This document shows positions 48,921 through 64,000 of a stretch of 64,000 nt of DNA, piece after piece. The notes beneath the pieces are model-generated. The model saw nothing but the letters and a program-made list of their open reading frames with translations. It searched no databases and was not told where the DNA came from. Both the position numbers and the translations under genes were made by a program. Position 1 is the first letter of the stretch; each line of letters starts with the position of its first letter. The DNA is from Methylocapsa sp. D3K7. Lineage in GTDB: Bacteria > Pseudomonadota > Alphaproteobacteria > Rhizobiales > Beijerinckiaceae. Where the stretch lies: NCBI RefSeq assembly GCF_029855125.1, contig NZ_CP123229.1:2710501-2774500 (forward strand), read 5' to 3'.

Positions 48921-49067
48921 TATGCATTTAGTAAATGAGGCAGATCGACCATAGTTAGGCCGTATGACAGCCATATTTTAACCATATTTGGTGATTTTGC
49001 CCCGATAGAGCCTATCCCTTGGTATTATTGGATTTCCAAGGTATTTCAAAAGCCGGTGGGCAGTGCG

Positions 49068-49628
49068 ATGAGCAAGCGTAACACAGGCGTCCGTCATTTT
49101 TTTGACAAATTTTCGACAAGGTTAATAGGTTTCGGAAGACTGGCTCTTTTGGCGGGTGGATGCGTGGCGGCATCCGGGGCAAACGCCAGGGAACATGTCG
49201 CGTTTTCGGCGGGCTATGCCGCCGGAACGATCATCATCAAGCAAAGCGAGCGGGCGCTCTATTTCACGACCGGATCTGGGACGGCCATCCGCTATCCGAT
49301 CGCGATCGGCCGGGCCGGAAAGGCCTGGCAGGGGGAGACCTCGGTTCAGGGCAAATATTTTTCGCCCGCATGGTCGGCGCCTGATGTCGTGCGGCATGAC
49401 CATCCCGAACTGTCGTCGGTCATCCCTGGCGGTTCTCCCCGCAATCCGATGGGCGCGGCGGCGATTACCTTAAGTCTTTCTGAAGTCGCGATCCACGGGA
49501 CCACGGCCAGGATGCGCAGATCCGTCGGCACGGCCGCCTCCTACGGCTGTATTCGGATGTACAATGAAGATGTGATAGACCTGTTTCACCGGGTCCAGGT
49601 CGGAACTCCGGTCGTCTCTATTCCCTGA
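49068..49628 (+). CDS. L,D-transpeptidase (YkuD)
   Basis: 186 residues from ATG 49068. A signal anchor (RLALLAGGCVAASGANA) precedes a YkuD domain: IKQSERALYFTTGSG, YPIAIGRAGKAWQG, then the catalytic site AIHGTTARMRRSVGTAASYG followed by CIRM (H-x(n)-S-x-G-C-I-R-M). The enzyme cross-links peptidoglycan by 3-3 bonds or links proteins to it. Periplasmic. Confidence 0.9.
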   Translation: MSKRNTGVRHFFDKFSTRLIGFGRLALLAGGCVAASGANAREHVAFSAGYAAGTIIIKQSERALYFTTGSGTAIRYPIAIGRAGKAWQGETSVQGKYFSPAWSAPDVVRHDHPELSSVIPGGSPRNPMGAAAITLSLSEVAIHGTTARMRRSVGTAASYGCIRMYNEDVIDLFHRVQVGTPVVSIP

Positions 49629-49924
49629 TTGGTCAGATTTCCTGTCCGCGGCCTCGAGTCCCACAGCGCCAGCGGGCGGGTCACGCAGCGGAAACTGCCG
49701 GTGCACTGCTGCGTGCGGGGTCTTTATTTCCGTCTTGGATTGGTCTAACCAATCTCTTCAGCGTGGTCTTCCCGGCGGCCGGGAGTGAGCCAGATGGGGT
49801 TGAGCCAATAGCCGGCGGGCAGTGCTGGCGAGTTGCGGTTGATTGGCGTAGAGTTCTGCGTTGCGGCATAGCTCCGTCACGCGATCCGCAGGAGCTTAGC
49901 GGTCATTTTCTCAGGGAGTAACTG

Positions 49925-50194
49925 GTGGAAACGAAAGCCCTCGAGCAAACCGAGCTTGCCAATCAGATCATCGACGTGATCGTCAAGGAAGGAATGGTTG
50001 ACCGCGAAAAAGCCACTTTAGACGCGACGATCGAGAGTCTGGATTTGAAATCGATCGACATTGTGATGATCTTGACCGCCATTGAAGAAAAATTCGACGT
50101 CTATATTCCCATGGATGGGCCTTTCCATGAGGCAAAAAGCGTCGGCGATTTGATCGACGCCATTGCCGCCTACATTATCAAAGAAAAAAACTGA
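49925..50194 (+). CDS. Specialised acyl carrier protein
   Basis: 89 residues from GTG 49925 with AGGGAG upstream. A four-helix ACP: the 4'-phosphopantetheine serine is S43 in IESLDLKSIDIVMILTAIEE, where the usual D-S-L is K-S-I. This is therefore not the general fatty-acid ACP but a dedicated one, as in special lipid or polyketide pathways. It ends one base before the ketosynthase ATG, so the two are co-translated. It heads the rightward lipid operon. Confidence 0.85.
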   Translation: METKALEQTELANQIIDVIVKEGMVDREKATLDATIESLDLKSIDIVMILTAIEEKFDVYIPMDGPFHEAKSVGDLIDAIAAYIIKEKN

Positions 50195-51412
50195 ATGGCT
50201 GACACGCGGCGTATTGTCGTCACCGGCATGGGTGCTGTGTCCGCCGCAGGCGTTGGCGCGGCAGCTCTTTGGCAGGCGGCGCGCGATGGCCGTTCCTGCG
50301 CGCGCGAGACCCAATTTGCACGGCCCTACCGGGGACGCATAAGGATTTCCGCGCAGGTCCAGAATTTCGACGCAGCCGCCTATCTCACCTCCAGTGAATT
50401 GCCCTTCTGCGATCCGGTCGCGCAATATCTGCTTGTCGCCGCCGACGAAGCGATGGCCCAGGCGGGGCTGGCATCGGCCAAACCCATGGGGCCGCGCACC
50501 GCCACCATCATCGGCACGGGTGTCGGCGGCATGCACACTTTGGAAAACGGGCTTTATCTGACGCTGGTCGAGCAAGGACGCCCGGATCCCTTGACGATTC
50601 CGCGTCTCATTCCCAGCGCCTGTCCCTCGTTGCTGAGCATCCGTTATGGTTCGACCGGGCCCTGTTTCGCGGTGGCGAGCGCCTGCTCCTCGGCAACGCA
50701 GGCGATCGGCCTCGGGGTCCAGCTCATACGTTCCGGGCTCGCAGATCGCGCCATCGTTGGCGGGACCGAGGATTGCGTGACCAACAGTGCCATGCTGGCT
50801 TGGGAAGCGCTGCGAGTTCTGACACCGGACGCCTGCCGGCCTTTCTCCAAGGGCCGCAATGGCATGATCCTTGGCGCGGGCGCCGCGGTGTTCATCCTGG
50901 AAGAATCGGAACTCGCGCGGGCCCGGGGCGCCGAAGCGCTCGTTGAAATCTCTGGCTACGGAACCTCGGCGGATGCCAAAGATCCCGTCCGCCCCGATGT
51001 CGATGGAGCCGCCGCCTGCATGCGCAATGCCTTGGCCGACGCTGGCGTCGATGCTGAGGAAATCGACTACGTCAACGCGCATGGAACCGGGACGACCGCG
51101 AACGACGCGACGGAATCGGCGGCCCTGGGCCTCGTCTTCGGCGGCCGGCCTCTGCCGGTGTCCTCGACAAAACCCGTGCATGGTCATGCGCTTGGTGCGG
51201 CCGGGGCGCTCGAACTCGTCGTTACGATCGGCGCGGTTCGCGAGAGTGTGGCGCCGCCGACCATCAATTGGCGTGAGGCCGACGTCAAATGCCCTGTCGA
51301 TCCCGTGCCGAATGAGGCGCGCCCCATGCCGATCAGGACCGCGTTGACCAATTCCTTCGCTTTTGGCGGCATCAATGCCAGCCTCATCGTCCGGCGCGCC
51401 GCCGCGGCATGA
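50195..51412 (+). CDS. FabF-like beta-ketoacyl-ACP synthase
   Basis: 405 residues. The Cys-His-His triad is complete: C164 in AVASACSSATQAIG, His in VNAHGTGTTANDATES and His in KPVHGHALGAAGALE. It should extend an acyl chain held by the dedicated ACP with malonyl units. The stop overlaps the ATG of the hot-dog gene (ATGA). The sequence is FabF/NodE-like rather than the housekeeping form, fitting a side pathway. Confidence 0.9.
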   Translation: MADTRRIVVTGMGAVSAAGVGAAALWQAARDGRSCARETQFARPYRGRIRISAQVQNFDAAAYLTSSELPFCDPVAQYLLVAADEAMAQAGLASAKPMGPRTATIIGTGVGGMHTLENGLYLTLVEQGRPDPLTIPRLIPSACPSLLSIRYGSTGPCFAVASACSSATQAIGLGVQLIRSGLADRAIVGGTEDCVTNSAMLAWEALRVLTPDACRPFSKGRNGMILGAGAAVFILEESELARARGAEALVEISGYGTSADAKDPVRPDVDGAAACMRNALADAGVDAEEIDYVNAHGTGTTANDATESAALGLVFGGRPLPVSSTKPVHGHALGAAGALELVVTIGAVRESVAPPTINWREADVKCPVDPVPNEARPMPIRTALTNSFAFGGINASLIVRRAAAA

Positions 51413-51852
51413 CCACGCGGGATCCTGCGCAAGCCGCCGCCCAGCCAGGGGAGCTGGGCGCGGCCGGCCCGGTGCGCCTGCCCGCGATCCGGGTCCGGAC
51501 CGAACCCAATGAAGTGGCGGCGTTTTCGCGCGAGACCTTCGCCGCTGGGACCGGTGATTTCGTCCCGCTCACCTTCCCCTTCCGCTGGTTCACGCTTCCC
51601 CCCGTCCGCGCCTTGATCATGCAATTGAGCGGCGGCGAGGAGTTTCTGCCGGTCCATGAGGCACAGAGTTTCGTCTATGAGCGGAGCCTGCGGACAGGCG
51701 CCGATTATGTCCTCGACATCGCGATCGAAACTTCTGAAACGCCGCCGCGTCTGACGTTGAAAATGACGGTCGCGGCCTTGCAAGGGGAGATTTGCGCCCG
51801 GCTCGAAACAATTTTGAGGATTGTCCGCCTCAAAGGGGAGACGCTTTCGTGA
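51409..51852 (+). CDS. Hot-dog-fold protein, non-catalytic half of a split hydratase
   Basis: 147 residues. The pattern FVPLTFPFRWFTLPPVRALI and VHEAQSFVYERSLRTG resembles the first half of MaoC-type double hot-dog enzymes (FAS1-like dehydratase domain). It lacks the D-x-N-P-x-H catalytic motif found in the next gene. Overlapping starts and stops (GTGA) link it to that gene, which suggests a heterodimer as with mycobacterial HadAB/HadBC. Confidence 0.65.
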   Translation: MTTRDPAQAAAQPGELGAAGPVRLPAIRVRTEPNEVAAFSRETFAAGTGDFVPLTFPFRWFTLPPVRALIMQLSGGEEFLPVHEAQSFVYERSLRTGADYVLDIAIETSETPPRLTLKMTVAALQGEICARLETILRIVRLKGETLS

Positions 51853-52283
51853 CAGAAGCCGGGTATGCGCTGCCGCCGGATTGGCCAAGCGCCGGTGCTG
51901 AGATCGGCGCGCAAAATTTTGGTCCGTTCGGGCATGACGCGCTCGTCCGTTATGCTGCGGTCTCTGGCGACGACAATCCTTTGCATCTTGATCCCGCTGC
52001 GGCAACGGCGGCGGGTCTCGCCGGGCCACCCGTGCATGGGATGCTGATGCTGGCATGTTTCGAGCCTCTCATCATGAGATGGCGGACGGATCTTTTCATT
52101 GCCCGGCTTTCCGCCAAGTTTTTGCGGCCCGTGCTGGTGGAGGAGGGCATTCGCGTTTTGGGGCGGGTCCTGCGCAGCCGCGGGGCGCCGAGGCCAGAAC
52201 TCATGTTGCGGCTTACTGCGCGGGGTCCCGGTGAGGCCCTAGTGATCTTGGCGGAAGCCGAGGTCTTGTACAGAACCAGCTGA
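51849..52283 (+). CDS. MaoC-like dehydratase/hydratase, catalytic half
   Basis: 144 residues from GTG 51849. The hydratase-2 motif YAAVSGDDNPLHLDPAAA with the D-N-P-x-H core is followed by GLAGPPVHGMLMLACFEP. It should remove or add water at a 3-hydroxyacyl/enoyl-ACP. It overlaps the upstream hot-dog gene and ends one base before the SDR gene. Confidence 0.8.
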   Translation: MTEAGYALPPDWPSAGAEIGAQNFGPFGHDALVRYAAVSGDDNPLHLDPAAATAAGLAGPPVHGMLMLACFEPLIMRWRTDLFIARLSAKFLRPVLVEEGIRVLGRVLRSRGAPRPELMLRLTARGPGEALVILAEAEVLYRTS

Positions 52284-52284
52284 C

Positions 52285-53073
52285 ATGCAGCCCCGCTCCA
52301 TCCTCATCACCGGCGCGTCGAGCGGCATCGGCCGGGCTCTGGCGCTGGTTTATGCGCGCCCCGGGACGTCGCTGTCCCTGATCGGGCGCGACCGCGAACG
52401 GCTGGAGGATGCCGCTGCCGCTGCCCGCGCGCAAGGGGCCGAAGTCGGCCTTGGTGTCCTCGACGTGCGCGATCAGGGCACAATGGCACAATGGATCGAG
52501 GCGGCCGACGCCCGCCAGCCCTTCGATCTTGTCATTGCCAATGCGGGGATTACGACGGGTCTCTCGCCGGGCGAGATCGCCGAGGACCCAAGCGCGGTCC
52601 GCGCCATCATCGGCATCAATCTGATTGGCGTCTTAAATACTGTCGAACCTTTGATCAGACCGATGTGCGCGCGGGGCGCCGGCCAAATCGCCTTCATCGG
52701 ATCGATCGCGGGGCTGCGCGGATTGCCTTATTCGCCGTCCTATTGCGCGACCAAGGCGGCGGTCCACGCCTACAGTGAATCCCTGCGCGGCCGTCTCGCC
52801 GCGAGCGGTGTGCAAGTCGCTCTCGTGATCCCTGGCTTTGTGAAGACCCCGTTGAATGATGGCATCGATGCCACAAAACCGCTCCAAATCACCGCTAGCC
52901 AGGCAGCAGCACGTATTCAAAAGGGTCTCCAACAGCGTAAGGCAGTAATCGCGTTTCCATTCCCACTTTACTTTGCGGCTCGCCTCTCCCGCATCCTGCC
53001 AATTTGGCTTGTGGATAAAGTTATGGCGTGCTTCAGGGTTAAGATTCCCCAAACACACGAGCGTATTCGTTAA
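52285..53073 (+). CDS. Short-chain dehydrogenase/reductase
   Basis: 262 residues. NAD(P) motif ITGASSGIGRALAL (9-16), NNAG-like IANAGIT, catalytic S140, Y153 and K157 in SPSYCATKAAVHAYSES. The C-terminal 50 residues (FPFPLYFAARLSRILPIWLV) are hydrophobic and probably touch the membrane or a long acyl chain. It could reduce the 3-ketoacyl-ACP made by the ketosynthase or 3-ketosphinganine. Last gene of the ACP operon; 244 bases then separate it from the GT2. Confidence 0.85.
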   Translation: MQPRSILITGASSGIGRALALVYARPGTSLSLIGRDRERLEDAAAAARAQGAEVGLGVLDVRDQGTMAQWIEAADARQPFDLVIANAGITTGLSPGEIAEDPSAVRAIIGINLIGVLNTVEPLIRPMCARGAGQIAFIGSIAGLRGLPYSPSYCATKAAVHAYSESLRGRLAASGVQVALVIPGFVKTPLNDGIDATKPLQITASQAAARIQKGLQQRKAVIAFPFPLYFAARLSRILPIWLVDKVMACFRVKIPQTHERIR

Positions 53074-53317
53074 CGAATTCTTACAATTTCCAGTTTTCTG
53101 GGAAGGTTCTTCGCTCGTCCTTACAGTCAAATCTCTCATTCACTCAATTTCTGAAACAAATTGTTGCAATTTGTTTGTTGTTGAAACCGTTCTTTTGGAG
53201 TTCAAAGCTTGAGTAGAGTGTATCCTTATGGCCTGCATTAAGGGACTCGTTGCTTGCATCGACCTGCCGTGCGGCCGCCCGGGCTGCATGTGACCGCATC
53301 ACAGGGGTAATGGACCA

Positions 53318-54664
53318 GTGAGTTTTGTGGAACTCTTCAGGGTTTTATGCGAAATCGGCTTGGTCGCCGCCTTTTGCGGGCTCTTGTTCGTCGGCGGCGG
53401 CTTTTTGATCCTGATCGGGATCAATATTTTCGAGCAGGCCTCCGGCTTCCTGCTCGGCAAGCGGCTTTACGCTCCGGTTCTCCAAGACGCGGACTTGCCC
53501 CATGTTTTGGTGCAAATCCCGGTTTTCAATGAGCCTGCCATGGTGGCCGATTGCTTGCGCTCTGCCGCCGCGCTGGATTGGCCGAAAGACCGGCTTCATA
53601 TTCAGCTTCTCGATGACAGCACCGACGGCACGGCGGCGATTGCCGATGTTGCTGTCCGCGCCTTGCGGGGTCAGGGTTTCGATATTTCGCATCTTCACCG
53701 GATGGCGCGGCGTGGCTACAAGGCGGGCGCCTTGGATGCGGGCCTGGCGCAATCCAGTGCTCCTTTTGTCGCCATTCTCGACGCCGACTTCCGGCCGCCC
53801 GCCAATTGGTTACGGGCCGTCATCCCGGCATTGATCGCCGATCCAAATGCGAGCTTCGTGCAATCGCGCTGTGAATTCGCCAATTACCGGACAAATTGGC
53901 TCACCCGCGCGCAAGGCCTCATGTTCGATGCACATTTCGTGATGGAACAGGCGACGCGCTTCCGGGCCGGGTGGCTATTTCAATTCAACGGCACTGGCGG
54001 GGTCTGGCGGCGCGCCGCGATAACGGCGGCGGGGGGCTGGTCGGCGGATTCTCTCTGCGAGGATCTTGATCTGACCATTCGCGCCGAAATCGCCGGATGG
54101 CACGGACTTTTTTCGATGGAACCGGCGGTCCCTGGCCTGGTTCCGGACAAGGTCTCGCATTGGCAAGTGCAACAGAGGCGCTGGTCCAACGGCTTTGTGC
54201 AGGTCGCCCGCAAGCTGTTGAGCGAGGTCTGGGCGGCCGAATGGCCGGTATGGCGCAAGCTCTCGGCGGCCTTCCTTATTCTGATCCAGACATTCTATCC
54301 GTGTGTCGCGCTTGCCTGCATCACCCTGGCACTTTGCGCCTTTATTCGCGGCGGCGACCTCGCCCCTTACGCGCCGATTGTCGAGACGATCGCAGCGTTG
54401 ATCCTCATCGTCGGCATCGGCATGACGTTTGTTCCCTATGTCATTTTGGGGCGAGGTTCGGTTTGGCGCTATCTTGCGACCCTCGGATCGCTGGTGCCCT
54501 TGATGATCTATCTCAGCGTCTCAAATGCGCCATCCATTTTGAAGACGGTTTTCGGGGCCTCCGAAACCTGGAAACGCACGCCGAAGACGACGCCTTTCCT
54601 CGATGTTCTGCCAGCGAACGACCAGCAGCTCAATGAGGCGCAATCCGGTTCCGCGTTGATTTGA
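53318..54664 (+). CDS. GT2 membrane glycosyltransferase, CslA/processive-like
   Basis: 448 residues. One N-terminal membrane segment (about 14-38), then the GT-A domain: LVQIPVFNE, LLDDSTDGT (99-100), AILDADFRPP (155-157), SLCEDLDLTIRAE and QVQQRRWSNGFVQVA (QxxRW). Two or more C-terminal membrane segments follow (LILIQTFYPCVALACITLALC, LILIVGIGMTFVPYVILGRG). This is the cellulose/glucomannan-synthase type that works on the cytoplasmic face. In this context it may glycosylate a lipid. Acceptor unknown. Confidence 0.85.
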   Translation: MSFVELFRVLCEIGLVAAFCGLLFVGGGFLILIGINIFEQASGFLLGKRLYAPVLQDADLPHVLVQIPVFNEPAMVADCLRSAAALDWPKDRLHIQLLDDSTDGTAAIADVAVRALRGQGFDISHLHRMARRGYKAGALDAGLAQSSAPFVAILDADFRPPANWLRAVIPALIADPNASFVQSRCEFANYRTNWLTRAQGLMFDAHFVMEQATRFRAGWLFQFNGTGGVWRRAAITAAGGWSADSLCEDLDLTIRAEIAGWHGLFSMEPAVPGLVPDKVSHWQVQQRRWSNGFVQVARKLLSEVWAAEWPVWRKLSAAFLILIQTFYPCVALACITLALCAFIRGGDLAPYAPIVETIAALILIVGIGMTFVPYVILGRGSVWRYLATLGSLVPLMIYLSVSNAPSILKTVFGASETWKRTPKTTPFLDVLPANDQQLNEAQSGSALI

Positions 54665-54675
54665 TCGCTGTCGCC

Positions 54676-54699
54676 GCCCGCCCCTGGTGGCGGGCCGTT
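54676..54699. terminator. Hairpin between the GT2 and desaturase genes
   Basis: GCCCGCC (54676-54682) pairs with GGCGGGC (54689-54695) over a 6-base loop, then CGTTT. The U-run is short, so termination is uncertain. It lies just after the GT2 stop in a convergent position. Confidence 0.45.
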
Positions 54700-54929
54700 T
54701 CCGTTGTGTCATCAGCCCTACCCAATTCAGAAAGCAGCAACAGCTTCAACGCCCCTCTCTGATTGGCGATTGGCATCGGCCTTAGCCTGGGGCTTCGTCT
54801 TGACCAAGCGTTCGTGACCCATCAAAAAATCCGCAAGGATATCGGCGGCATCGAAAAGGCGCGGCGTGCCGAGGCGTTTCGGGCAAGCTCGGGCAGAACG
54901 AAAAGTGCGACCGGCAAGCCCAGCCGTTC

Positions 54930-55937
54930 TCAGCGCCCGGCGCTGCGATCGACCCGCGTGTACAATGTAAATTGCGGGTCGAAGATGAACGTAAGCAATA
55001 AATTGGCCCAGGATTTGTGGGTTTTCAGCCCATCGTAATATTCCGGCGCCATCCGCTTTAGCTGCGGCAAGCGCGACCATGGCACATCGGGAAAATCATG
55101 ATGCTCGTTGTGATAGCCGATGTTGAGCGCGATGAGGTTCAACGGGCCATAATAGCCAAAGGTTTCTTGGGCAGGATCGGAGGTGAAATGCTCCTGCAGC
55201 CAGCGGGCGCCGAGGGGGTGCAAGCCGCCAACCGAGAACCAGAATGACGCAAAGAGATAGAAAAGCGCATTCGGGCCGAAACACATCAAAATGATGAGGT
55301 CGAAAAGGAACACGCAGCCGGCATTGATGAAGGTCCAGCGGCTCCACATCGGCACCGTGCCCTTCAGGCGGCCAAGACGGGTGAGTTGGAAGACAGGGAA
55401 AAGAAACATCCAGGCCGCTTTGCCCAGTACGCTTTTGCCAAACAGATTGGCTTCCCAGCGGCTCGGCAAATCCGCGTCGTAATTGTAATCTCCAAGATGC
55501 GAATGGTGCTTCATGTGATAGCAGCGAAAGCCCATCGCGGTCGGAAAAGTGTTCGGCAAGTCGGCAAGAATTGCGACCCATTTGTTCGCGTCATTGGCTT
55601 TAAAGATGCAATTGTGGGTCGCGTCATGGATGACGACGAACATGGCGTGATTGGCGAAGGCGCCAATGCAAAAAGCAGCGATGAGCGCCGCCCACCAATA
55701 GGAGAAACCAAGGTAGCCGAACACTGCCGCGATCAAGACTTGCCCAATGACAACCGCGAGGGTGATTGCCGCCGTGAGCGGGTCGTGCCCGATCAAAGTT
55801 CCGACTTCCGGGTGGGCTGCCAAGATCGCCCGCCGGCGCAGCGGGTGCGGACGCGGCAAATCGGTTGGAATGAACCAGTTCTGTGCGCTGGAGCCGATCC
55901 GGCCAGCAGGCCTTCGTTCAACTGCTTCTATGCGCAT
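54930..55937 (-). CDS. Sphingolipid (dihydroceramide) delta-4 desaturase, DES1-like
   Basis: 335 residues. It has the three-His-box membrane desaturase core: H104-DAT-H108, H141-MK-H144-H145 and H276-NE-H279-H280. The surroundings match eukaryotic DES1/DEGS over the whole length as I recall it: an N-terminal LRRRAILAAHPEVGTLIG, the loop QETFGYYGPLNLIALNIGYH, then NEHHDFPDVPWSRLPQLKRM, and PEYYDGLKTHKSW. DES enzymes insert the 4,5-double bond (some add a C4 hydroxyl) in dihydroceramide. Acting in the inner membrane with an electron donor. It follows the candidate ceramide synthase by 24 bases. Family assignment strong; substrate inferred. Confidence 0.88.
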   Translation of the reverse strand: MRIEAVERRPAGRIGSSAQNWFIPTDLPRPHPLRRRAILAAHPEVGTLIGHDPLTAAITLAVVIGQVLIAAVFGYLGFSYWWAALIAAFCIGAFANHAMFVVIHDATHNCIFKANDANKWVAILADLPNTFPTAMGFRCYHMKHHSHLGDYNYDADLPSRWEANLFGKSVLGKAAWMFLFPVFQLTRLGRLKGTVPMWSRWTFINAGCVFLFDLIILMCFGPNALFYLFASFWFSVGGLHPLGARWLQEHFTSDPAQETFGYYGPLNLIALNIGYHNEHHDFPDVPWSRLPQLKRMAPEYYDGLKTHKSWANLLLTFIFDPQFTLYTRVDRSAGR

Positions 55938-55961
55938 GTGCCGTCTTTCCTTCTCAAAGCA

Positions 55962-57116
55962 TTACGCCGCGAGACTCTTCTCATAGATGCGATGAATCTT
56001 ATCAATTTTCGCACCGGACAGTTCGATCGGCCGCCGCATGCCGAAATTGTCCTCCAAAACCCAGCCGAATTCGACATGTTCGAACGAACTCGATTTGCTG
56101 CGATGGCGCATTTCCTCGATGAATGCCAGAATGACCGCTCCGCCCGCCGCCTTGCGGTGCAAGGCGCGGCGGATGCCAAATAGGGCAAGCCGCCCAGAGA
56201 CAAAGCTGTGATTCCTGATCCTTGATATAAGACGCGGAAGGCCAAACGGGAACAAGCGGCCGCCGAGATCACCCGTCACCTCATGCAGGTTCGGCAAGAT
56301 AATGCCGAAGGACTGCGGCACCCCATCAAGTTCGATCATGAAACCGCCCTCCGGCGGCATCACCATTTTCAGCGCATCGGCACTCGACATGAACTCGGCG
56401 AGCGTAAAAGGCACAAATCCCCAATTCTCGCTCCAGGCATCGTTGAAGATATCGATGATAATCTCTGCTTCCTTGCGGATGTTCTTCAAGTCGAGCGCCC
56501 GGATGTTGAGCCGCTCGCGCCATTCGGGCCGCTCAGCAATTCTTGGGCTTGCCTTCCGGTCTTTCTCACCGACGTCATAGCGGTAGGAAATGAGGTCTCG
56601 CGCTTTTGTGTAGCCTTGGCGCTCCAAGGAATTGACCAAATAGGCCGGAGTCCAGGGCATGAACACCATGGGGGCGGCTTCAAACCCTTGCACGAGCAAT
56701 CCGCATTCGCTCCAGATGGAGGGCGAAAACGGCCCATGCACAACCGCCGCGCCGCGTTGGCGCAGCCAATTTTCGGCGGCTCTTATCAAAGCCGCGACAA
56801 CTGCGTCGTCGTCGATGGCGTCGAGGCAGCCGAATTGCGCGCGGGACGCCCCAAGCGGCGTATAGGCTTCGTTGTAGATCTGAGCCGAAATCCGTCCCGC
56901 AAGTTTGCCATTTTTGCGGGCGAGCCAGGCTTGCGATTCGACAAGCTTGAAATGCGGATTGAGCTTGTGCGCGAACATGGTCCAGCGTTCGGCATCGAGG
57001 GGGGGCGCGAAGCCTGGCTGATCGCCATAAATGAGCCGGGGAAGACGGCAGAACGCGAAAAAGTTTGCCAGCCCATTGACTGGAATGATCTCGATCTCGT
57101 CTCTATTTCCGTCCAT
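55962..57116 (-). CDS. Candidate bacterial ceramide synthase (GNAT-like acyltransferase)
   Basis: 384 residues from ATG 57116 (TTG 57176 adds 20). The N-terminal half has PVNGLANFFAFCRLPRLIYG and FAPPLDAERW, then LARKNGKLAGRISAQIYNEA, FGCLDAIDDD, and VVHGPFSPSIWSECGLLVQG, in a GNAT-like acyltransferase fold of the kind I recall beside serine palmitoyltransferase genes in Alphaproteobacteria, including the Caulobacter ceramide synthase. It would N-acylate the sphingoid base. No membrane segment is obvious. Lies between spt and the desaturase. Function inferred. Confidence 0.7.
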   Translation of the reverse strand: MDGNRDEIEIIPVNGLANFFAFCRLPRLIYGDQPGFAPPLDAERWTMFAHKLNPHFKLVESQAWLARKNGKLAGRISAQIYNEAYTPLGASRAQFGCLDAIDDDAVVAALIRAAENWLRQRGAAVVHGPFSPSIWSECGLLVQGFEAAPMVFMPWTPAYLVNSLERQGYTKARDLISYRYDVGEKDRKASPRIAERPEWRERLNIRALDLKNIRKEAEIIIDIFNDAWSENWGFVPFTLAEFMSSADALKMVMPPEGGFMIELDGVPQSFGIILPNLHEVTGDLGGRLFPFGLPRLISRIRNHSFVSGRLALFGIRRALHRKAAGGAVILAFIEEMRHRSKSSSFEHVEFGWVLEDNFGMRRPIELSGAKIDKIHRIYEKSLAA

Positions 57117-57237
57117 TGGCCTGGCCTTGTTTCGAGCCCGCGCGCCACGCCGAGGTCCGGGTGTAACTTCGAGCAAAGTGCATCAAGAAAGCATGGATGC
57201 GGTTGAGGCGGCGCCCAACTGTAACGAAGCGCCGCCG

Positions 57238-58548
57238 TCAGCTGGCCGCGCTGAGCGAACGTGCCGGAGCCTCGCGCTGGGTTGGCCGCTTTGCCAGCAG
57301 TTCCGTCACACCCCTGATCTCTGCTTCCGTGTGCTTGGCCGAAATGAAAAAACGTAGACGCGGCTGATCCTTTGGCACACCGATTTGGATGATCGGCGGC
57401 ACGTAATAGCCATTGTCCATCAAATGGCTGGACGCCGCCAGCGTCTCAAGGCTGTCGGAGAAAAGGATCGGCACGACACCGCGTCCGATGGCAGGTCCGG
57501 TATCGAGCCCCGCGTCATGCGCGAAATCGATGAACAGTTCGGCATTGTGGCGCAGCCGTTCGATGCGCCACGTCTCTTCTTGCATCAATTGGAGAGCGGT
57601 CTCCGCCGCCGCCGAGATGACCGGCGAGAGGCCGACGCTATAAACGAACCCAGGCAAAGTATAGCGCAGCCAATTGATCACCGGTTGCTTACCGGCGACG
57701 AACCCTCCACAAGAGACGAGGGTCTTCGATAATGTGCCGATAATCAGATCGATTTGCTGCGGATCAACCCCCGCATGTTCCCAAAGACCGCGCCCCTCGT
57801 TCCCCAAGACACCGATCGAGTGGGCCTCGTCGATCAACAGCCAGGCCTTATGCCGTTCCTTGAGACTGACCAGCCCCGCAAGGTCGGCGACATCGCCATC
57901 CATGCTGTAGAGGCCTTCGGCGACGATCAGCGTATTGCGGTAGTTGGCGCGCTTTTCGCGCAGAAGAAAATCCAGATGGTCGAGATCATTGTGGCGAAAA
58001 ACGATGGTTTCGGCCGTTGTGCTTTTGGCCCCGCTCACAATGCTATTGTGCGACAATTCGTCGATGAACAGCGCATCATGCGATCCAAGGATATGCGAAA
58101 TGGTCGTCACATTGGTGAGATAGCCGCTGACCAGCGTCAAAGCCTCCTCGACGCCGAGGAATTTGGCGAGGCCCGTCTCCAAATTATGATGCGAGGAACG
58201 CTCGCCGCCAACGAGGCGTGAGCCGAGGGCACCGATCCCCAGGGTGTTCATCGCTGTCGCCGCCGCCGCGACGATCGAGGGGTGCGAGGCGAGCCCGAGA
58301 TAGTCATAATTGGCGAAACTGACGAATCGACGGCCGTTTAACTCAGCTTCACGCCGCAAAGTGTCTATTGGCGCAAAAAACGGGTCGCCGAGGTCGAGAT
58401 ACGCCTTTCCGGCGAGCCGGAATCGCTTCGTTGCATAATCGGCGAGGCTGTGGGTCTTTTGCACTTGCGTATTCGGAGGTCCAGATGGGGTCACGAATTT
58501 ATAAAGTCTGGCATAGAGACGGCTGCGTTTGGTGCGGCGCAGCCGCAT
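57238..58548 (-). CDS. Serine palmitoyltransferase
   Basis: 436 residues (GTG 58494 could be the true start). PLP-dependent alpha-oxoamine synthase: FANYDYLGLASHP, H167 in IDELSHNSIVSG, D240 and H243 in LLIDEAHSIGVLG, and PLP-Lys K275 in GTLSKTLVSCGGF. The neighbours (a ceramide-synthase-like gene and DES) favour serine palmitoyltransferase over 8-amino-7-oxononanoate or aminolevulinate synthase. It condenses serine with acyl-CoA or acyl-ACP to 3-ketosphinganine in the cytoplasm. First gene of the leftward sphingolipid run. Confidence 0.85.
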   Translation of the reverse strand: MRLRRTKRSRLYARLYKFVTPSGPPNTQVQKTHSLADYATKRFRLAGKAYLDLGDPFFAPIDTLRREAELNGRRFVSFANYDYLGLASHPSIVAAAATAMNTLGIGALGSRLVGGERSSHHNLETGLAKFLGVEEALTLVSGYLTNVTTISHILGSHDALFIDELSHNSIVSGAKSTTAETIVFRHNDLDHLDFLLREKRANYRNTLIVAEGLYSMDGDVADLAGLVSLKERHKAWLLIDEAHSIGVLGNEGRGLWEHAGVDPQQIDLIIGTLSKTLVSCGGFVAGKQPVINWLRYTLPGFVYSVGLSPVISAAAETALQLMQEETWRIERLRHNAELFIDFAHDAGLDTGPAIGRGVVPILFSDSLETLAASSHLMDNGYYVPPIIQIGVPKDQPRLRFFISAKHTEAEIRGVTELLAKRPTQREAPARSLSAAS

Positions 58549-58846
58549 TCAGTTAAGCAATAGGCGAATCGTGGCATAGCATCATGCGCCGCGTCGAGCA
58601 AAAGGGGATCGGTACATAACTCCGCAAAACACTCGGAGCAGCCTGTTGGGGAATACAATACCCACTTTCTTATCAAAAGCTTACCGCATTCTTTCAATTC
58701 CGGTTACAAACCGTAACAATGACTGCTTCGTGGCCCGGCAAGTGCCGCGCAAGGAGATCGTGTTTTGCGGGTCGGATGCCTCCGAATCACCAAGATGAGG
58801 ATGTGAGGCAATTCATGACGGACGGATAGCCCGCCAAAGTCCAGCG

Positions 58847-59671
58847 TCAAGCGTTCCCTGGGACCGCATCGAGGGCTGGTATCCCCGCGCCTTCTGCTTG
58901 GTCCGGTTCGGGCACGCGCGTCTTGGAGGCGAGCATCAAGGCGACCGCCGAGGCGGCGCGGCTGGCCGCAATTTTGCGGTCATCTCCCCGTTCATAGGGG
59001 AATGGCTTGCCGAAGATGAGATCGCAGCGGATTGGCTCGCCCTTCAAGACCGACCAAATGTGCGGAAGCAAGGTCGCATCCCCAAACCATGCCGCTGCCG
59101 GTGTCGAATAGCGGATCGCGACCGGCTGCACCAAGACTCTTTCAACGCCGCTCGCGGCCGAGAGAAGATCGCGCGCGGCGGCGAAATGCGAGCTATGAAA
59201 TTTGCGAAGCGCCGTGCCGTCGCCGGTCGTGGCCTCCGGGAAGAGCAGCATGGGGCGGCCCGAAAGCATTCTTTGCGCCATCGCCGCATTGGTGCTGGGG
59301 ATCGCGCGGCGTCGCTGACGATCGACGAACACGGTTTCCTGCAGCCGTGCGAAAGTGGAAATGAGCGGCCACGCGCCGATCTCGCGCTTGGCCAAAAAAC
59401 AGACCGGCTCGACGCTGCAAAATGCCAGAATGTCAAGCCAAGAGACGTGATTGGCGGCGATAAGACGGGGGTCTTGCGGATGCGATTCCGGCGGCGCCGC
59501 GCACTGGGCGCAAACATCTAGCCGCAGCAAATTGGTGAGCGTTCGGCCGAAGGCGACCGGAAACCAGCGGCGCAGCGGCCAGCGCCGCCGCAGCGCGACC
59601 CACTGCAAAGGCGTAAGACACAAGAACACGAGCATGGCGAGCAGGATTGCCGTGACGCGAAGATATGCCAT
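58847..59671 (-). CDS. olsA: Lysophospholipid/O-acyltransferase, OlsA-like
   Basis: 274 residues. N-terminal membrane segment (VTAILLAMLVFLCLTPLQWV), then the PlsC motifs: NHVSWLD (H75-x4-D80), and LLFPEATTGDGTALRKFH as the PEGT-like block. Next to an OlsB-like gene in divergent orientation, it is likely OlsA, which O-acylates lyso-ornithine lipid, though a general PlsC role (lysophosphatidate acyltransferase) cannot be excluded. Confidence 0.75.
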   Translation of the reverse strand: MAYLRVTAILLAMLVFLCLTPLQWVALRRRWPLRRWFPVAFGRTLTNLLRLDVCAQCAAPPESHPQDPRLIAANHVSWLDILAFCSVEPVCFLAKREIGAWPLISTFARLQETVFVDRQRRRAIPSTNAAMAQRMLSGRPMLLFPEATTGDGTALRKFHSSHFAAARDLLSAASGVERVLVQPVAIRYSTPAAAWFGDATLLPHIWSVLKGEPIRCDLIFGKPFPYERGDDRKIAASRAASAVALMLASKTRVPEPDQAEGAGIPALDAVPGNA

Positions 59672-59860
59672 GATGTGCCGCAGGTTGGCCAGCTTGGTCA
59701 GATTGCGATTCGCCCCTTTGTAGAATCGCTTGCCTGCAGTTTGATGACAGCGCCGCAGCGGGTTTTTGCATCGGGAGCTTTCCCCAAATCGTCATCAAAC
59801 CTTCGTGTCTAGTTTTTAGATTCGAAACACACGCAGCTCCCTTCAGAGATTCGACGGTTC

Positions 59861-60778
59861 ATGTGGAACATAGCGACGCCTTCCGGTTTCGGCGAGGCCA
59901 TCCGGCACACGGCTTCCTTCATCAGACCCCGCCGCATGGCGCGCGATTTGTCCGGCTTGCCAGCGGTGCTGGGGCGATTTGGTCCTTACGAAATCCGGCT
60001 GGCGGTGGCGAACCGGGACATCCGTAAAGCGCAACGGCTTCGCTATAAGGTCTTTTACGAAGAAGGTGAGGCCATTCCTTACCAAACTGCCGCGCTGACA
60101 CGCAGGGACATCTGTCCCTTTGATAAATACTGCGATCATCTACTTGTTATCGACAAAGAAAAGCTTAATCGCCTTGGCCGCAAAAAACCGAAAGTCGTTG
60201 GCGTGTACCGTCTGCTTCGCGGGGACACCGCAGCCCGCCATCAAGGCTTTTACAGCCAAACCGAGTTCGATATCGCGCCTTTGCTCGCACGCCATCCCGG
60301 CAAGAAATTCTTAGAACTCGGCCGCTCGTGCGTCCATCCGGAGTACCGATCGAAGCGCGTCATCGAGCTGTTGTGGCGCGGCTTATGGGCTTATGCGAAA
60401 CATCATCGTATCGACGTGCTCATTGGCTGCGCCAGCCTGCCGGGGGTCGATCCGCATGCGCTCGCAACGCCTTTGGGTTTCCTGCACCGCCACGCCCTGG
60501 CGTCGGGGGTATGGAGAGTCCGCCCGCTCAAGGGGCGGGGGGTCCACATGACATTCGCGGAAGGCCACGCGATCGACGCACGCAAAGGCGTGGCGGCGCT
60601 GCCGCCGCTTCTCAAGGCTTATCTGCGGGCAGGGGCGAAATTCGGTGATGGTGCGGTAGTCGACGCGCAGTTCCGGACCACCGACGTCTTCACGATTTTG
60701 CCCCTGGCCGATTTGGAAGAACGCTATATCGACTATTATGGAGGCCCAATGGAGATGCCGGATAGTTATGTTGCGTGA
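59861..60778 (+). CDS. olsB: L-ornithine N-alpha-acyltransferase, OlsB-like
   Basis: 305 residues. Family features: LGRFGPYEIRLAVANRDIRK, AQRLRYKVFYEEGEA, CDHLLVID, VVGVYRLLRGD, FLELGRSCVHPEYRSKRVIE (acyl-donor binding) and IGCASLPGVDPHALATPL. OlsB transfers a 3-hydroxyacyl chain from ACP to ornithine in the first step of ornithine-lipid synthesis. Divergent from the OlsA-like gene, sharing about 190 bases of promoter region. Confidence 0.85.
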   Translation: MWNIATPSGFGEAIRHTASFIRPRRMARDLSGLPAVLGRFGPYEIRLAVANRDIRKAQRLRYKVFYEEGEAIPYQTAALTRRDICPFDKYCDHLLVIDKEKLNRLGRKKPKVVGVYRLLRGDTAARHQGFYSQTEFDIAPLLARHPGKKFLELGRSCVHPEYRSKRVIELLWRGLWAYAKHHRIDVLIGCASLPGVDPHALATPLGFLHRHALASGVWRVRPLKGRGVHMTFAEGHAIDARKGVAALPPLLKAYLRAGAKFGDGAVVDAQFRTTDVFTILPLADLEERYIDYYGGPMEMPDSYVA

Positions 60779-60782
60779 GCCG

Positions 60783-61442
60783 CTAAGACCGGGATTGCGC
60801 TCGACCGAAAATAAGCATGAAATTGTTGGCGGGCAAAGCCAACTGTTGTGTCAAGACAAGGCCGTGATTGCGGGCGGCTTTCTCAACATCCCGGACGTCC
60901 TTTAATCCCCATTCGAGAGCGTTCGACGCGCGAAGCTCTTGATCAAAAGCCTCGTTGGACGGCGCGGTGTATTTTCCATCGACATTGAACGGCCCATAAA
61001 TCGCAAGAAATCCAGTATTCTTGAGAACACGCGCGGCGATTTGCATCACGCCATCGGCGACCGAGATAGGCGCGACTTGAAACAGATTGATGGCAAAGAT
61101 GACATCGTAGCGATGCAACTTCGCGTCCGGCCAAGACTCGGGGCGAGTGAGGTCGATATGGACGGGGTCCCAGACATTGGCGTTGGCACTGTCGGCTTGC
61201 ATTTGGCGGACCGCCGCAAACACGCCTTTGTCGTAATCGGATGGTTGAAACCGGATATGCGGAAAATGTGGCGCGAAATAATTGATATGTACGCCGCTGC
61301 CGGTCGCGAGTTCGAGAACGTCGCCAGAGGGTGGAAAAAGTTGCTTGAAGACATCCAAAATTGGGTCGCGGTTGCGCTTTGCGGCCCAATCCACGTAGGA
61401 GCTTAGAGGATAAAGGTCGATAAAGGACCGCACGCCCGTCAT
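60783..61442 (-). CDS. DUF938 SAM-dependent methyltransferase-like protein
   Basis: 219 residues from ATG 61442, chosen because GGAG is seven bases upstream. The SAM-binding loop is VLELATGSGVHINYFAPHFP, followed by FQPSDYDKG and YDVIFAINLFQVAPIS. Substrate unknown for the family. Convergent with olsB with 4 bases between. Confidence 0.8.
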   Translation of the reverse strand: MTGVRSFIDLYPLSSYVDWAAKRNRDPILDVFKQLFPPSGDVLELATGSGVHINYFAPHFPHIRFQPSDYDKGVFAAVRQMQADSANANVWDPVHIDLTRPESWPDAKLHRYDVIFAINLFQVAPISVADGVMQIAARVLKNTGFLAIYGPFNVDGKYTAPSNEAFDQELRASNALEWGLKDVRDVEKAARNHGLVLTQQLALPANNFMLIFGRAQSRS

Positions 61443-61623
61443 GAAGTACTCCAATTAACGTTTGATATTATCTCATAGCCAAAGATGAAGAGCCACCGCA
61501 AGCTCGGGCGCGAGCGGTAACTTGGCCAAAATCGTCGTTCTTAGATTCCAGCCGACTGGAATCTAGTATTAGTCTATAGAAACCGTCAATTATTCTACCA
61601 TATTCTAAGCTGCGGGAGATGGA

Positions 61624-62046
61624 TCATAAATGATCCATCTCAACGTCTGAGCAAGATAAGCCGAACTGCGCCAAGGCTTCCTCCAAATAATCAGCGAGGA
61701 GGGGAATACCGAGCAAGTAGGCGGCCGTGCGTTTGTTATGGGCCCGCGCGGCTTCGCCACGGAGTTCATCCCAATCACCGATGGTTCCATCGCCGCGCCC
61801 GAGCCAGGAGAGAGCGACGAGATCAATTTGTTCATCCTCGTTCATCGCGCCAATCATCCCCCGGATCTCGTCGCCAGCGGGATCGTCGCCGTGATCTTCG
61901 AGGACGGATATCATGCCGTCGTCCGTCGCGTTGGATCCATCATCGGGATCTGTGACGGCATCCTTCACATCGAATTCGCGGGCCTTGATGATCAGGAAAC
62001 ATATTTTTTCGGTTGCGATCGTCAAACTGGGAGGAGGTTTTGACAT
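61624..62046 (-). CDS. DUF3775 family protein
   Basis: 140 residues, acidic. Typical parts: LTIATEKICFLIIKAREFDV at the start, then an Asp-rich middle (DDGSNATDDG), and QIDLVALSWLGRGDG followed by KRTAAYLLGIPLLADYLEE. Members are found in Alphaproteobacteria; no function is known. Small cytoplasmic protein. Confidence 0.8.
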   Translation of the reverse strand: MSKPPPSLTIATEKICFLIIKAREFDVKDAVTDPDDGSNATDDGMISVLEDHGDDPAGDEIRGMIGAMNEDEQIDLVALSWLGRGDGTIGDWDELRGEAARAHNKRTAAYLLGIPLLADYLEEALAQFGLSCSDVEMDHL

Positions 62047-62245
62047 CGTTCACCTCAACCGGAAGCACGGCAAAAACGCTTATGCGGGCAGCGGCATGGA
62101 CAGCGCCGGTCCCCTCAAAAGAGCCAGGTCATATCTGGGACGCTTTTCGGGATTGTCGAGTCCGCTGAGCGGACTTGGGAGTGGGGTGTTTGGCGTATCT
62201 AACCGGATGGGACGGCGATTGGCCGCCGTCCGCCGCGGGTTTCGA

Positions 62246-62959
62246 TTAGGGATTACCGCCGGTTTCCGTGCTTAGCCGGCGAATCAGCGCGGGGGTCAAA
62301 ATGCCGTGCACCGGAAGCCCGTGATCACGCTCGTAGCGCTCGACCGCCCGCTGTGTTGCTGGCCCGGCCACACCGTCAGGGGTAAGCACAAAGCCTAATT
62401 TGACGAGCGCGCGCTGGGCCGCCATCACCGGCTTGCTGGGGCTGACGGGCGTGTGGTCCGCCGTAGCCGGTTGAGCGCGCGGAACAGGTTGAGATTTCGC
62501 TGCGGGTGGTGCGCTCAAGAGTTCTGTAATTTCATCATGCGGCGTGACGGGCGGCGTATTGGCATGAGCTTGGTGAGGCTGCCCTGTTTCAAGCGATGGC
62601 TTTTCCATAGGCTTTTCACGCGGCGGGGCGACGGATGCGGCTGGCTGCGGCCGCGCTGGGGGAATTGCGCTCATCTCAATCACCCTTGGCTCCTTCGCGG
62701 GGACCGCCGGGCGGGCGTGCGAGAAAAGCGGTGCCGGATGGCGGCTCTTCTGCCAGGCGAGCGCATTTAAGAGAACGGCAACCATGGTTCCGCCGAGACA
62801 GATAGCGGCGAGAATGCCCATATAGCGCCGGCCGCGCCGTGCAGTCCGCCTGAAATGGCCTCCTCGCACCTTCCGGAGGGCATCCCGGATGCGATGCTGC
62901 TTCGCCGGCGGTTCGCGCAAAACAAAGTCGTGATCGGCGGTGGCCAAGGCTTCACGCAA
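62246..62959 (-). CDS. Membrane-anchored peptidoglycan-binding protein
   Basis: 237 residues. A basic cytoplasmic N-terminus (FRRTARRGRRY), one membrane segment (IGLAAICLGGTMVAVLLNAL-like, about 48-68), a long Pro/Ala-rich linker (70-165) that can cross the periplasm, and a PG_binding_1 domain at the end (AAQRALVKLGFVLTPDGVAG, RAVERYERDHGLP). It likely senses or anchors to the wall. It starts 8 bases inside the end of the histidine kinase gene, so the two are coupled. Confidence 0.8.
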   Translation of the reverse strand: MREALATADHDFVLREPPAKQHRIRDALRKVRGGHFRRTARRGRRYMGILAAICLGGTMVAVLLNALAWQKSRHPAPLFSHARPAVPAKEPRVIEMSAIPPARPQPAASVAPPREKPMEKPSLETGQPHQAHANTPPVTPHDEITELLSAPPAAKSQPVPRAQPATADHTPVSPSKPVMAAQRALVKLGFVLTPDGVAGPATQRAVERYERDHGLPVHGILTPALIRRLSTETGGNP

Positions 62960-64000
62960 TTTTCTGCACCGTCATGTGATTGTGCGGGTCGTGCCTGTCT
63001 GATCTGGGCAAATCCGCGACAGTTTGTATTTTGGCGGGCATGCCGCTCTTGGCGGCAACCCCGTCGAGCGGCAGAAGGATATGAACACTCGTTCCCTTGT
63101 CCGGCTTGCTCGCCACCGCGATTGTGCCCCCCTGAAGTCCGACGAGGCCGCGCACGATGGACAGACCAAGGCCGGAACCGTTCTGAGTCCGGCCGGAAGT
63201 TTTGGCTTGAAAGAAGGGATCGCCAAGGCGGGCGAGATCATGTTCGGCGATACCTATGCCGGTATCTGCGACCACAATCTGGAGGGCTTGTGGCTGGGGC
63301 CGGACACTGATTGTCACGGTGCCATTGGGAGGGGTGAACTTGATCGCATTGGAGAGCAGATTGACGAGGATCTGTGCGCAAGCACGTCTATCGCCAGTGA
63401 TCTCGGCGAGATTTTCCGGATAGGCGCGAAGCAGCTCGACCCCGCTTTTTTGGGCATGCAGTTTCACCATGTCGCAACACAGATCGATCAGCGGCGCGAC
63501 GGCGAAGGGCTCGCGCTCGACCGCCAAACAGTTGGACTGGATTTTCGATATGTTCGAGATCGAATTGACGACATCCAGAAGATGCAGTCCCGACTGGTGA
63601 ATGATTCTTGCGTATTCGCGTTGCTTTTCAATATCGGGCAGTGACAAGGGCGGATTGGCGAGCAACTCAGAAAATCCGACAATCGCGTTAAGTGGCGTGC
63701 GCAATTCGTGGCCCGCGTGAGCCAGGAAATAGTCCTTGCCGAGTGCTGCTTCCTGGGCCGCGGCGAGGGCTTCATCGCGTTCCGCCTCGGTTTGCTTTTC
63801 CTGTGTCACGTCGCGGATGATCGCGATGGCGTCATCGATCCCATGCCCTCCTCCGGCGGCAAGGTCACCGCCACGGCGTGCCCGCAGCTCGAGGCATAGG
63901 AAAACAGGTTCGGCGTAATCCCCACGATCGACGCGCACGGCACCGCGCCAGCGCAAAGCCGCGCTGACTGTAACAGCGCCCGCCCGGGCGTCCGAAATCG
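62952..64000 (-). CDS. Sensor histidine kinase, partial (cut by window end)
   Basis: The frame is open to the right edge, so the N-terminus is missing. The visible 349 residues include a PAS-like tail (DDAIAIIRDVTQEKQTEAER), the H-box HAGHELRTPLNAIVGFSELL, the N-box LVNLLSNAIKFTPPNG, and the G1/G2 boxes VVADTGIGIAEHDLARLGDP and GSGLGLSIVRGLVGLQGG. No receiver domain is seen. It would phosphorylate an unknown response regulator. It is coupled to the peptidoglycan-binding gene downstream. Confidence 0.88.
   Translation of the reverse strand, partial: ISDARAGAVTVSAALRWRGAVRVDRGDYAEPVFLCLELRARRGGDLAAGGGHGIDDAIAIIRDVTQEKQTEAERDEALAAAQEAALGKDYFLAHAGHELRTPLNAIVGFSELLANPPLSLPDIEKQREYARIIHQSGLHLLDVVNSISNISKIQSNCLAVEREPFAVAPLIDLCCDMVKLHAQKSGVELLRAYPENLAEITGDRRACAQILVNLLSNAIKFTPPNGTVTISVRPQPQALQIVVADTGIGIAEHDLARLGDPFFQAKTSGRTQNGSGLGLSIVRGLVGLQGGTIAVASKPDKGTSVHILLPLDGVAAKSGMPAKIQTVADLPRSDRHDPHNHMTVQKIA

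Follow-up and report, generated by a model that had tools for sequence, protein, structure and literature searches.

Gene organization and predicted pathway

Bacterial sphingolipids have mostly been described with saturated bases, and a locus in the alphaproteobacterium Methylocapsa sp. D3K7 (Beijerinckiaceae) raises the question of whether some bacteria also encode the means to desaturate or hydroxylate the base. The locus lies in a 64,000-nucleotide stretch of contig NZ_CP123229.1 (positions 2,710,501 to 2,774,500; here called the window) from a 4.15-Mb genome in a single contig. Its core is a trio of minus-strand genes encoding an alpha-oxoamine synthase (AOS; 57238 to 58548, 436 amino acids [aa]), a tandem-GNAT N-acyltransferase (55962 to 57116, 384 aa), and a DES-family candidate sphingolipid delta-4 desaturase or C4-hydroxylase (54930 to 55937, 335 aa). 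We consider it likely that the trio and a plus-strand block of genes facing it encode a ceramide-type pathway distinct from that of Caulobacter, with its own acyl carrier and a 4,5-unsaturated or C4-hydroxylated, probably glycosylated product.

Three tandem genes with short gaps had been described at 54930 to 58548 in an initial annotation of the window, and this arrangement was confirmed: the gaps are 24 bp (DES/GNAT) and 121 bp (GNAT/AOS, counted from 57116). The GNAT open reading frame (ORF) spans 55962 to 57176, and the ATG at 57116 is a likelier start than the TTG at 57176, because the resulting 384 aa is a common length among its relatives. DES was found in 36 of 149 Beijerinckiaceae genomes, representing 9 of 43 genera, and a trio-type GNAT (>500 bits) was present in exactly the same 36; eight other genomes had weaker GNAT matches (79 to 299 bits) and no DES. 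The order AOS-GNAT-DES on one strand was seen in 17 of 18 loci examined, taken from 18 of these 36 genomes (the exception is L052), and by coordinates DES adjoins GNAT in all but two of the 36 genomes (34/36; exceptions, G003 and G045), indicating that the arrangement is not due to chance. The GC content of the operon (0.56 to 0.59 per kb) is inside the range of its flanks (0.54 to 0.65).

The facing block (49925 to 54664, plus strand) encodes an acyl carrier protein (ACP; 49925 to 50194; PF00550, 23.4 bits, cut-off 20.8), a dedicated FabF-like beta-ketoacyl-ACP synthase (KAS; 50195 to 51412), the small protein DH1 (51409 to 51852), which is dehydratase-like by position alone, a MaoC-like dehydratase (51792 to 52283; PF01575, 58.6 bits, cut-off 27), a short-chain dehydrogenase/reductase (SDR; 52285 to 53073) that is a candidate 3-keto reductase, and a GT2 glycosyltransferase (53318 to 54664; PF13641, 73.6 bits; PF13506 [GT21], 36.5 bits) that is a candidate ceramide glycosyltransferase. 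The description of the locus as one sphingolipid operon thus holds insofar as the genes form one conserved set, but the set is larger than the trio and includes these six genes.

From the observed gene content, homology, conserved order, co-occurrence, and separate phylogeny, we infer the catalytic steps, the amino acid, the step order, and the lipid as follows. Together, ACP, KAS, and MaoC would assemble or supply an acyl chain bound to a dedicated carrier protein. The AOS would join this chain to an amino acid, for which serine is the likeliest candidate, yielding a 3-keto long-chain base, the ketone of which would be reduced by the SDR. The GNAT would then N-acylate, and DES, using O2 and electrons from a donor encoded elsewhere, would introduce either a 4,5 double bond or a hydroxyl at C4 into the base. 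The product would probably be glycosylated by GT2.

The desaturase and its relatives

The desaturase matches PF08557 (Lipid_DES; 35.9 bits, cut-off 23) and PF00487 (101 bits, cut-off 29.7). The complete DES1/DEGS histidine signature that had been attributed to it is present, and all eight residues (H104, H108, H141, H144, H145, H276, H279, and H280) are invariant in an alignment of 21 sequences, including three from insects. The comparison with ordinary fatty acid desaturases agrees: in the tree, the protein groups with the DES family, and the three outgroup desaturases lie far outside, on branches with lengths of 6 to 10 that are meaningful for this gross split alone. On its sequence, we assign the protein to the DES family. 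PF08557 was absent from 14 control genomes, including that of Caulobacter, in which PF00487 is present. A PDB sequence search with DES returned nothing up to E = 1.

Relatives of the desaturase are automatically annotated as sphingolipid delta-4 desaturases, and some are labeled 4-desaturase/C4-monooxygenase by JGI. The DES family includes bifunctional enzymes. A DES2-like C4-hydroxylase producing a phytosphingosine-type base is a version of the favored reading, with which its odds overlap, and the JGI names speak for it; the sequence itself holds nothing that decides between desaturation and C4 hydroxylation, and we regard hydroxylation as possible rather than probable.

DES-type genes are common in bacteria, and that of the window is no lone bacterial case. 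At least 561 stretches in named bacterial and archaeal genomes encode DES relatives; the best 80, ranked by likeness to a fly DES1 sequence, include loci from Bacteroidota, Myxococcota, a metagenome-assembled genome (MAG) of Bacteriovoracaceae, Ignavibacteria, and Legionella. Among 398 genomes sampled from the phylum, five had DES matches, one of which (L051 in genome G194) was judged to be spurious, since its PF08557 match covered 17 positions inside a 682-aa open frame and a tblastn search with the window DES found nothing there. Another member of the class (G389, family code f13) carries a divergent DES at L049 (9682 to 10731; 41 to 44% identical; motif GFHVEHHDL). We retained it as a DES, with an unsure position in the tree and with no AOS or GNAT match in its 19.5-kb stretch. 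The 240-genome class sample contained one DES, that of the window's own genome. None of 41 pattern matches in viral contigs proved to be a relative.

The initial annotation had offered two origins for the desaturase, namely, horizontal acquisition or a bacterial root of the eukaryotic enzyme. In a tree of 72 sequences, including 43 of the 80 named loci, the window DES falls in a clade of 19 (support 100/100) outside a clade of 31 (100/99) whose members are eukaryotes, Myxococcota, Bdellovibrionota, some of the Bacteroidota, and Legionella. Within the latter, the eukaryotes, represented by five insects and one Arabidopsis sequence, group with four sequences from Myxococcota and Bdellovibrionota (97/92; 99/96 without the outgroup), although the labels of MAGs may be wrong. 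Forcing the window clade together with the sampled eukaryotes was rejected (approximately unbiased [AU] test, P = 0.0005). Because the eukaryotes group with Myxococcota and Bdellovibrionota and the joining is rejected, neither a recent transfer from eukaryotes, against which the GC content also speaks, nor a "bacterial root of DES1" fits the window gene. The findings offer a bacterial context in which to view where the eukaryotic delta-4 desaturase came from.

The alpha-oxoamine synthase

The AOS gene had been annotated as encoding serine palmitoyltransferase (SPT). Its assignment to the alpha-oxoamine synthases stands, but the protein is not a canonical SPT: it scores 297.7 bits on the proteobacterial SPT model NF047599 (cut-off 500) and belongs to a different clade. 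On the BioF model it scores 343.9 bits (cut-off 426.45). Residues H167, D240, H243, K275, and R399, which we take to be the stacking histidine, the aspartate, the second histidine, the pyridoxal phosphate-binding lysine, and the carboxylate-binding arginine, are conserved in 12 aligned AOS sequences. A mislabeled BioF or ALAS was ruled out, because the genome encodes elsewhere both a BioF-like protein that narrowly misses the cut-off (423.6 bits) and an ALAS (638.7 bits, cut-off 338.55); the window AOS is thus a third enzyme.

In a tree of 42 sequences, the window AOS formed a clade with its family relatives that excluded canonical SPT, BioF, and ALAS. In a second tree (41 sequences), it belonged to a superclade of 32 (100/99), which has two parts. 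The part of 13 sequences that holds the window AOS (100/99) is mostly partnered with ceramide synthase (CerS)-type GNATs, one of which adjoins the AOS in 10 cases; Acidisoma also has a GNAT (308 bits), and L225 and L227 are without one in the stretch. The part of 19 (95/76) is mostly adjacent to polyketide synthase (PKS) genes and includes the AOS of Sinorhizobium meliloti and Legionella fusion proteins. The GNAT partner is not exclusive to the former part, since L184 and L230 in the latter also have a homologue. An AOS of the window's type was found in 25 of the 398 phylum genomes (E <= 1e-85), and among 18 AOS stretches from 16 of these, a PKS of 2,231 to 2,588 aa stood close to the AOS in 14 and a GNAT homologue was present in 2. 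The AOS clade as a whole is therefore no marker of ceramide synthesis; it is the CerS-type partner that points to ceramide.

This kinship makes one alternative serious. An alpha-oxoamine lipid made by the AOS and SDR could prime or anchor a capsule or another glycan, as in an Rkp-type surface polysaccharide system, with GT2 adding the first sugar and CerS and DES tailoring the anchor. The superclade includes the AOS proteins of S. meliloti, Shinella, and Acidisoma; in S. meliloti the gene stands between those for a 2,502-aa PKS-like protein and an SDR, beyond which lie capsule genes, and in Acidisoma the AOS, SDR, CerS-type GNAT, and hydroxylase genes adjoin capsule export genes, while in genome G452 a PKS-AOS-GNAT cluster adjoins a gene for a capsule-type protein. 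Nine capsule, export, and glycosyltransferase queries, however, had no match in the window, the part of its genome that the search covered; one KpsT-like ABC match was found in the 18 trio loci and two more in 12 block stretches, and no type I PKS is encoded among the window ORFs at 48000 to 64000. Moreover, the window AOS lies in the mostly CerS-partnered and not in the mostly PKS-adjacent part of the superclade, and even the PKS-AOS loci are only partly linked to capsule genes (a capsule or export match in 5 of 14 stretches). We therefore judge the capsule-lipid alternative to be unlikely, and a ceramide-type pathway is preferred.

Several of the related loci deserve description in their own right. 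In L242 (4427 to 17237), L229, L231, and L244, from rhizobia and a genome of the same family, a superclade AOS adjoins PKS-like proteins of ~2,500 aa and capsule or polysaccharide export genes; the lipid of these loci may be sphingoid. An Acidisoma plasmid (L243, 9891 to 24043) carries genes for a CerS-type GNAT, an SDR, an AOS, and a sterol-desaturase-type hydroxylase, with capsule export genes adjacent, and G452 has a canonical SPT as well as the second, PKS-AOS-GNAT cluster (L184, 2439 to 14890) beside the capsule-type gene. Acidisoma and G452 combine the ceramide-type and capsule-lipid ideas. The window's gene set connects ceramide-type genes with rhizobial capsule lipid genes, whose product is, to our knowledge, not known.

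The GNAT as a ceramide synthase candidate

The initial annotation had proposed the GNAT-like protein as a candidate ceramide synthase, and its distribution agrees. Among the 240 class genomes, a canonical SPT above the curated cut-off was found in 31, a GNAT homologue (E <= 1e-20) in 32, and both in 30. The exceptions are G593, an 82% complete genome with SPT and without GNAT, and G000 and G564, in which a GNAT stands beside an AOS below the cut-off. In stretches fetched from 15 of the 31 SPT genomes, the GNAT profile found homologues in 7, one of the stretches being cut. The trio protein has the GNAT fold and is 35 to 40% identical to the GNATs near canonical SPT genes. Because homologues accompany canonical SPT in 30 of 31 class genomes, we class it as a CerS-type candidate, by co-inheritance with SPT.

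The conserved block and neighboring genes

The block stands beside the trio in 7 of the 18 loci, two of which (L044 and L046) lack the SDR gene; in L052, the MaoC, SDR, and GT2 genes are beside DES, with GNAT copies elsewhere in the genome. A KAS with 60 to 80% identity to that of the window was found in all 11 DES-bearing genomes tested. Of 12 genomes without DES, 9 had KAS copies of ~40% identity only, and G010, G022, and G062 had copies of 53 to 55%, those of G022 and G062 standing beside a CerS-type GNAT gene. In G062 (L212), genes for MaoC, KAS, ACP, the CerS-type GNAT, AOS, and SDR occur in one stretch, which ties the block to the AOS, as both are joined there without DES.

The window SDR is 43 to 47% identical (BLASTP, 151 to 213 bits) to SDRs encoded beside DES, AOS, or CerS-type genes in five other loci, namely, two Legionella loci, a gammaproteobacterial MAG, G564, and G062; its best paralogue in its own genome scores 85.9 bits (HMMER), and the SDRs of S. 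meliloti, Shinella, and Acidisoma score 77 to 122 bits. Two further loci speak for the pathway, namely, L133 of Legionella gratiana, described below, and L129 of a MAG labeled Rickettsiales, which has DES, an ACP-like gene, KAS, a FabA-like dehydratase, SDR, GNAT, and an SPT narrowly above a curated cut-off (641 bits, cut-off 640).

Two genes precede the ACP gene (46983 to 49628), the first acetyl-CoA-synthetase-like and the second small and ykuD-like (the names are ours). In L044, L046, L199, and L200 the block is flanked by the pair in the same order, and the second AOS cluster of G452 has a close homologue of the synthetase-like gene nearby. Ornithine lipid genes adjoin the trio on the other side (58847 to 60778) and encode an OlsA-like acyltransferase (204.1 bits; lyso-ornithine lipid O-acyltransferase cut-off, 300) and OlsB (338.4 bits, cut-off 320).

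Weighing the ceramide-type reading

A number of observations weigh against a ceramide-type pathway with a modified base. The AOS score is under every SPT cut-off, and the wider AOS clade is mostly PKS linked and partly capsule linked. We presume that DES is missing from all 31 canonical-SPT genomes in the class sample, the DES and SPT samples being taken as the same draw from their equal size and tallies, with not every genome named. Around the 80 named DES loci, with flanks of at most 7 kb and often less, an AOS was found in 4, a GNAT homologue in 2, and an SDR (>=200 bits) in 4, so that DES is usually unlinked to such genes. For 10 of the 18 loci, no block was seen next to the trio; in the KAS regions of those genomes, ACP-KAS-DH1-MaoC-SDR occur together in seven and ACP-KAS-DH1 in G126, and in G114 and G146 the stretch around one of several KAS copies showed KAS alone. 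The L211 stretch of G022 holds GNAT, ACP, KAS, and MaoC genes and lacks an AOS. The window SDR resembles that of S. meliloti (84.6 bits) no more than it resembles a paralogue in its own genome, no KDSR-named chain was present among the best 60 of 75 PDB rows matching the SDR, and DH1 had no Pfam family match. Finally, CC_0202 of Caulobacter, called a DesA-family desaturase/hydroxylase and the one desaturase-family protein with a bacterial sphingolipid link that we encountered in the literature, is reported to hydroxylate the amide-linked acyl chain and not the base (PMC11324152).

The last point suggests that the desaturase could act on the ceramide N-acyl chain or on another lipid (acyl lipid, hopanoid, or carotenoid). 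That the bacterial relatives at the 80 named loci mostly have no linked AOS gene fits such a substrate, as do matches to CrtW-, CrtR-, and DesA-type models, although these are weak and all far below the cut-offs. Yet the window DES exceeds the PF08557 cut-off, whereas this domain was not found in the Caulobacter control genome, the distribution of DES is identical to that of the trio GNAT across the 149 genomes, and the outgroup desaturases fall far outside DES. We judge a substrate other than the base to be unlikely, and the base of a ceramide-type lipid remains the favored target.

From the gene set, lipids of the sphingosine or phytosphingosine type are predicted for bacteria related to cultured Methylocella, such as G040, a relative of M. 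silvestris that has both DES and the GNAT; the prediction is accessible to gene deletion and lipidomics. Among the open-licence papers listed, titles and abstract openings mention no bacterial DES enzyme, no Beijerinckiaceae sphingolipids, and no such gene set. More speculatively, a second bacterial ceramide pathway, in which RkpG-like AOS proteins are fed by their own carrier, might make true sphingosine-type glycosylceramides in Methylocella-type bacteria, rhizobial capsule loci might use the same chemistry for a sphingoid lipid anchor that has gone unrecognized, and the delta-4 desaturase of eukaryotes might derive from a myxobacterial or bdellovibrio-like donor inside a bacterial radiation and not from alphaproteobacteria; we put this combined proposal forward only tentatively.

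Comparison with known systems

The Caulobacter-type ceramide genes are aasR, cerR, acpR, spt, and cerS, the last of which is reported to be always in an operon separate from the other four (PMC11324152). The window has in common with them a CerS-type GNAT, an ACP, and an AOS, but its AOS is of another clade, its CerS-type gene adjoins the AOS gene, and the ORFs of the 15 canonical-SPT stretches include no close match to its SDR (best, 61.7 bits). AasR was not identified in the window, where no search was aimed at it.

The rhizobial rkp-1 genes are presumably those named RkpA/G/H/J, with RkpA being a type I PKS; the window AOS is of the RkpG-like clade. Both systems have an AOS of the same superclade together with an SDR and chain-building genes. 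The window has discrete ACP, KAS, and MaoC proteins in place of a PKS of ~2,500 aa, differs by its CerS-type GNAT, DES, and GT2, has an SDR distant from that of S. meliloti, and has no capsule genes near the trio.

In Legionella gratiana (L133, 311 to 7924), a FAAL-ACP-AOS fusion, a fatty acid hydroxylase, an SDR, and a DES are encoded together in a predicted sphingoid pathway, and Legionella parisiensis (L134) likewise has AOS, SDR, and DES at one locus. This combination is shared with the window. Unlike in the window, the Legionella AOS is fused to FAAL and ACP, the DES falls in the eukaryote-side clade, and the fetched stretches contain no CerS-type GNAT.

Compared with eukaryotic DES1/DEGS1, the window DES belongs to a different clade and lacks the MGxxxS start of the insect sequences. 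It is nevertheless 36 to 39% identical to the three insect enzymes and shares with the eukaryotic proteins PF08557 and PF00487, the three histidine boxes, and the GYHNEHHDFP motif.

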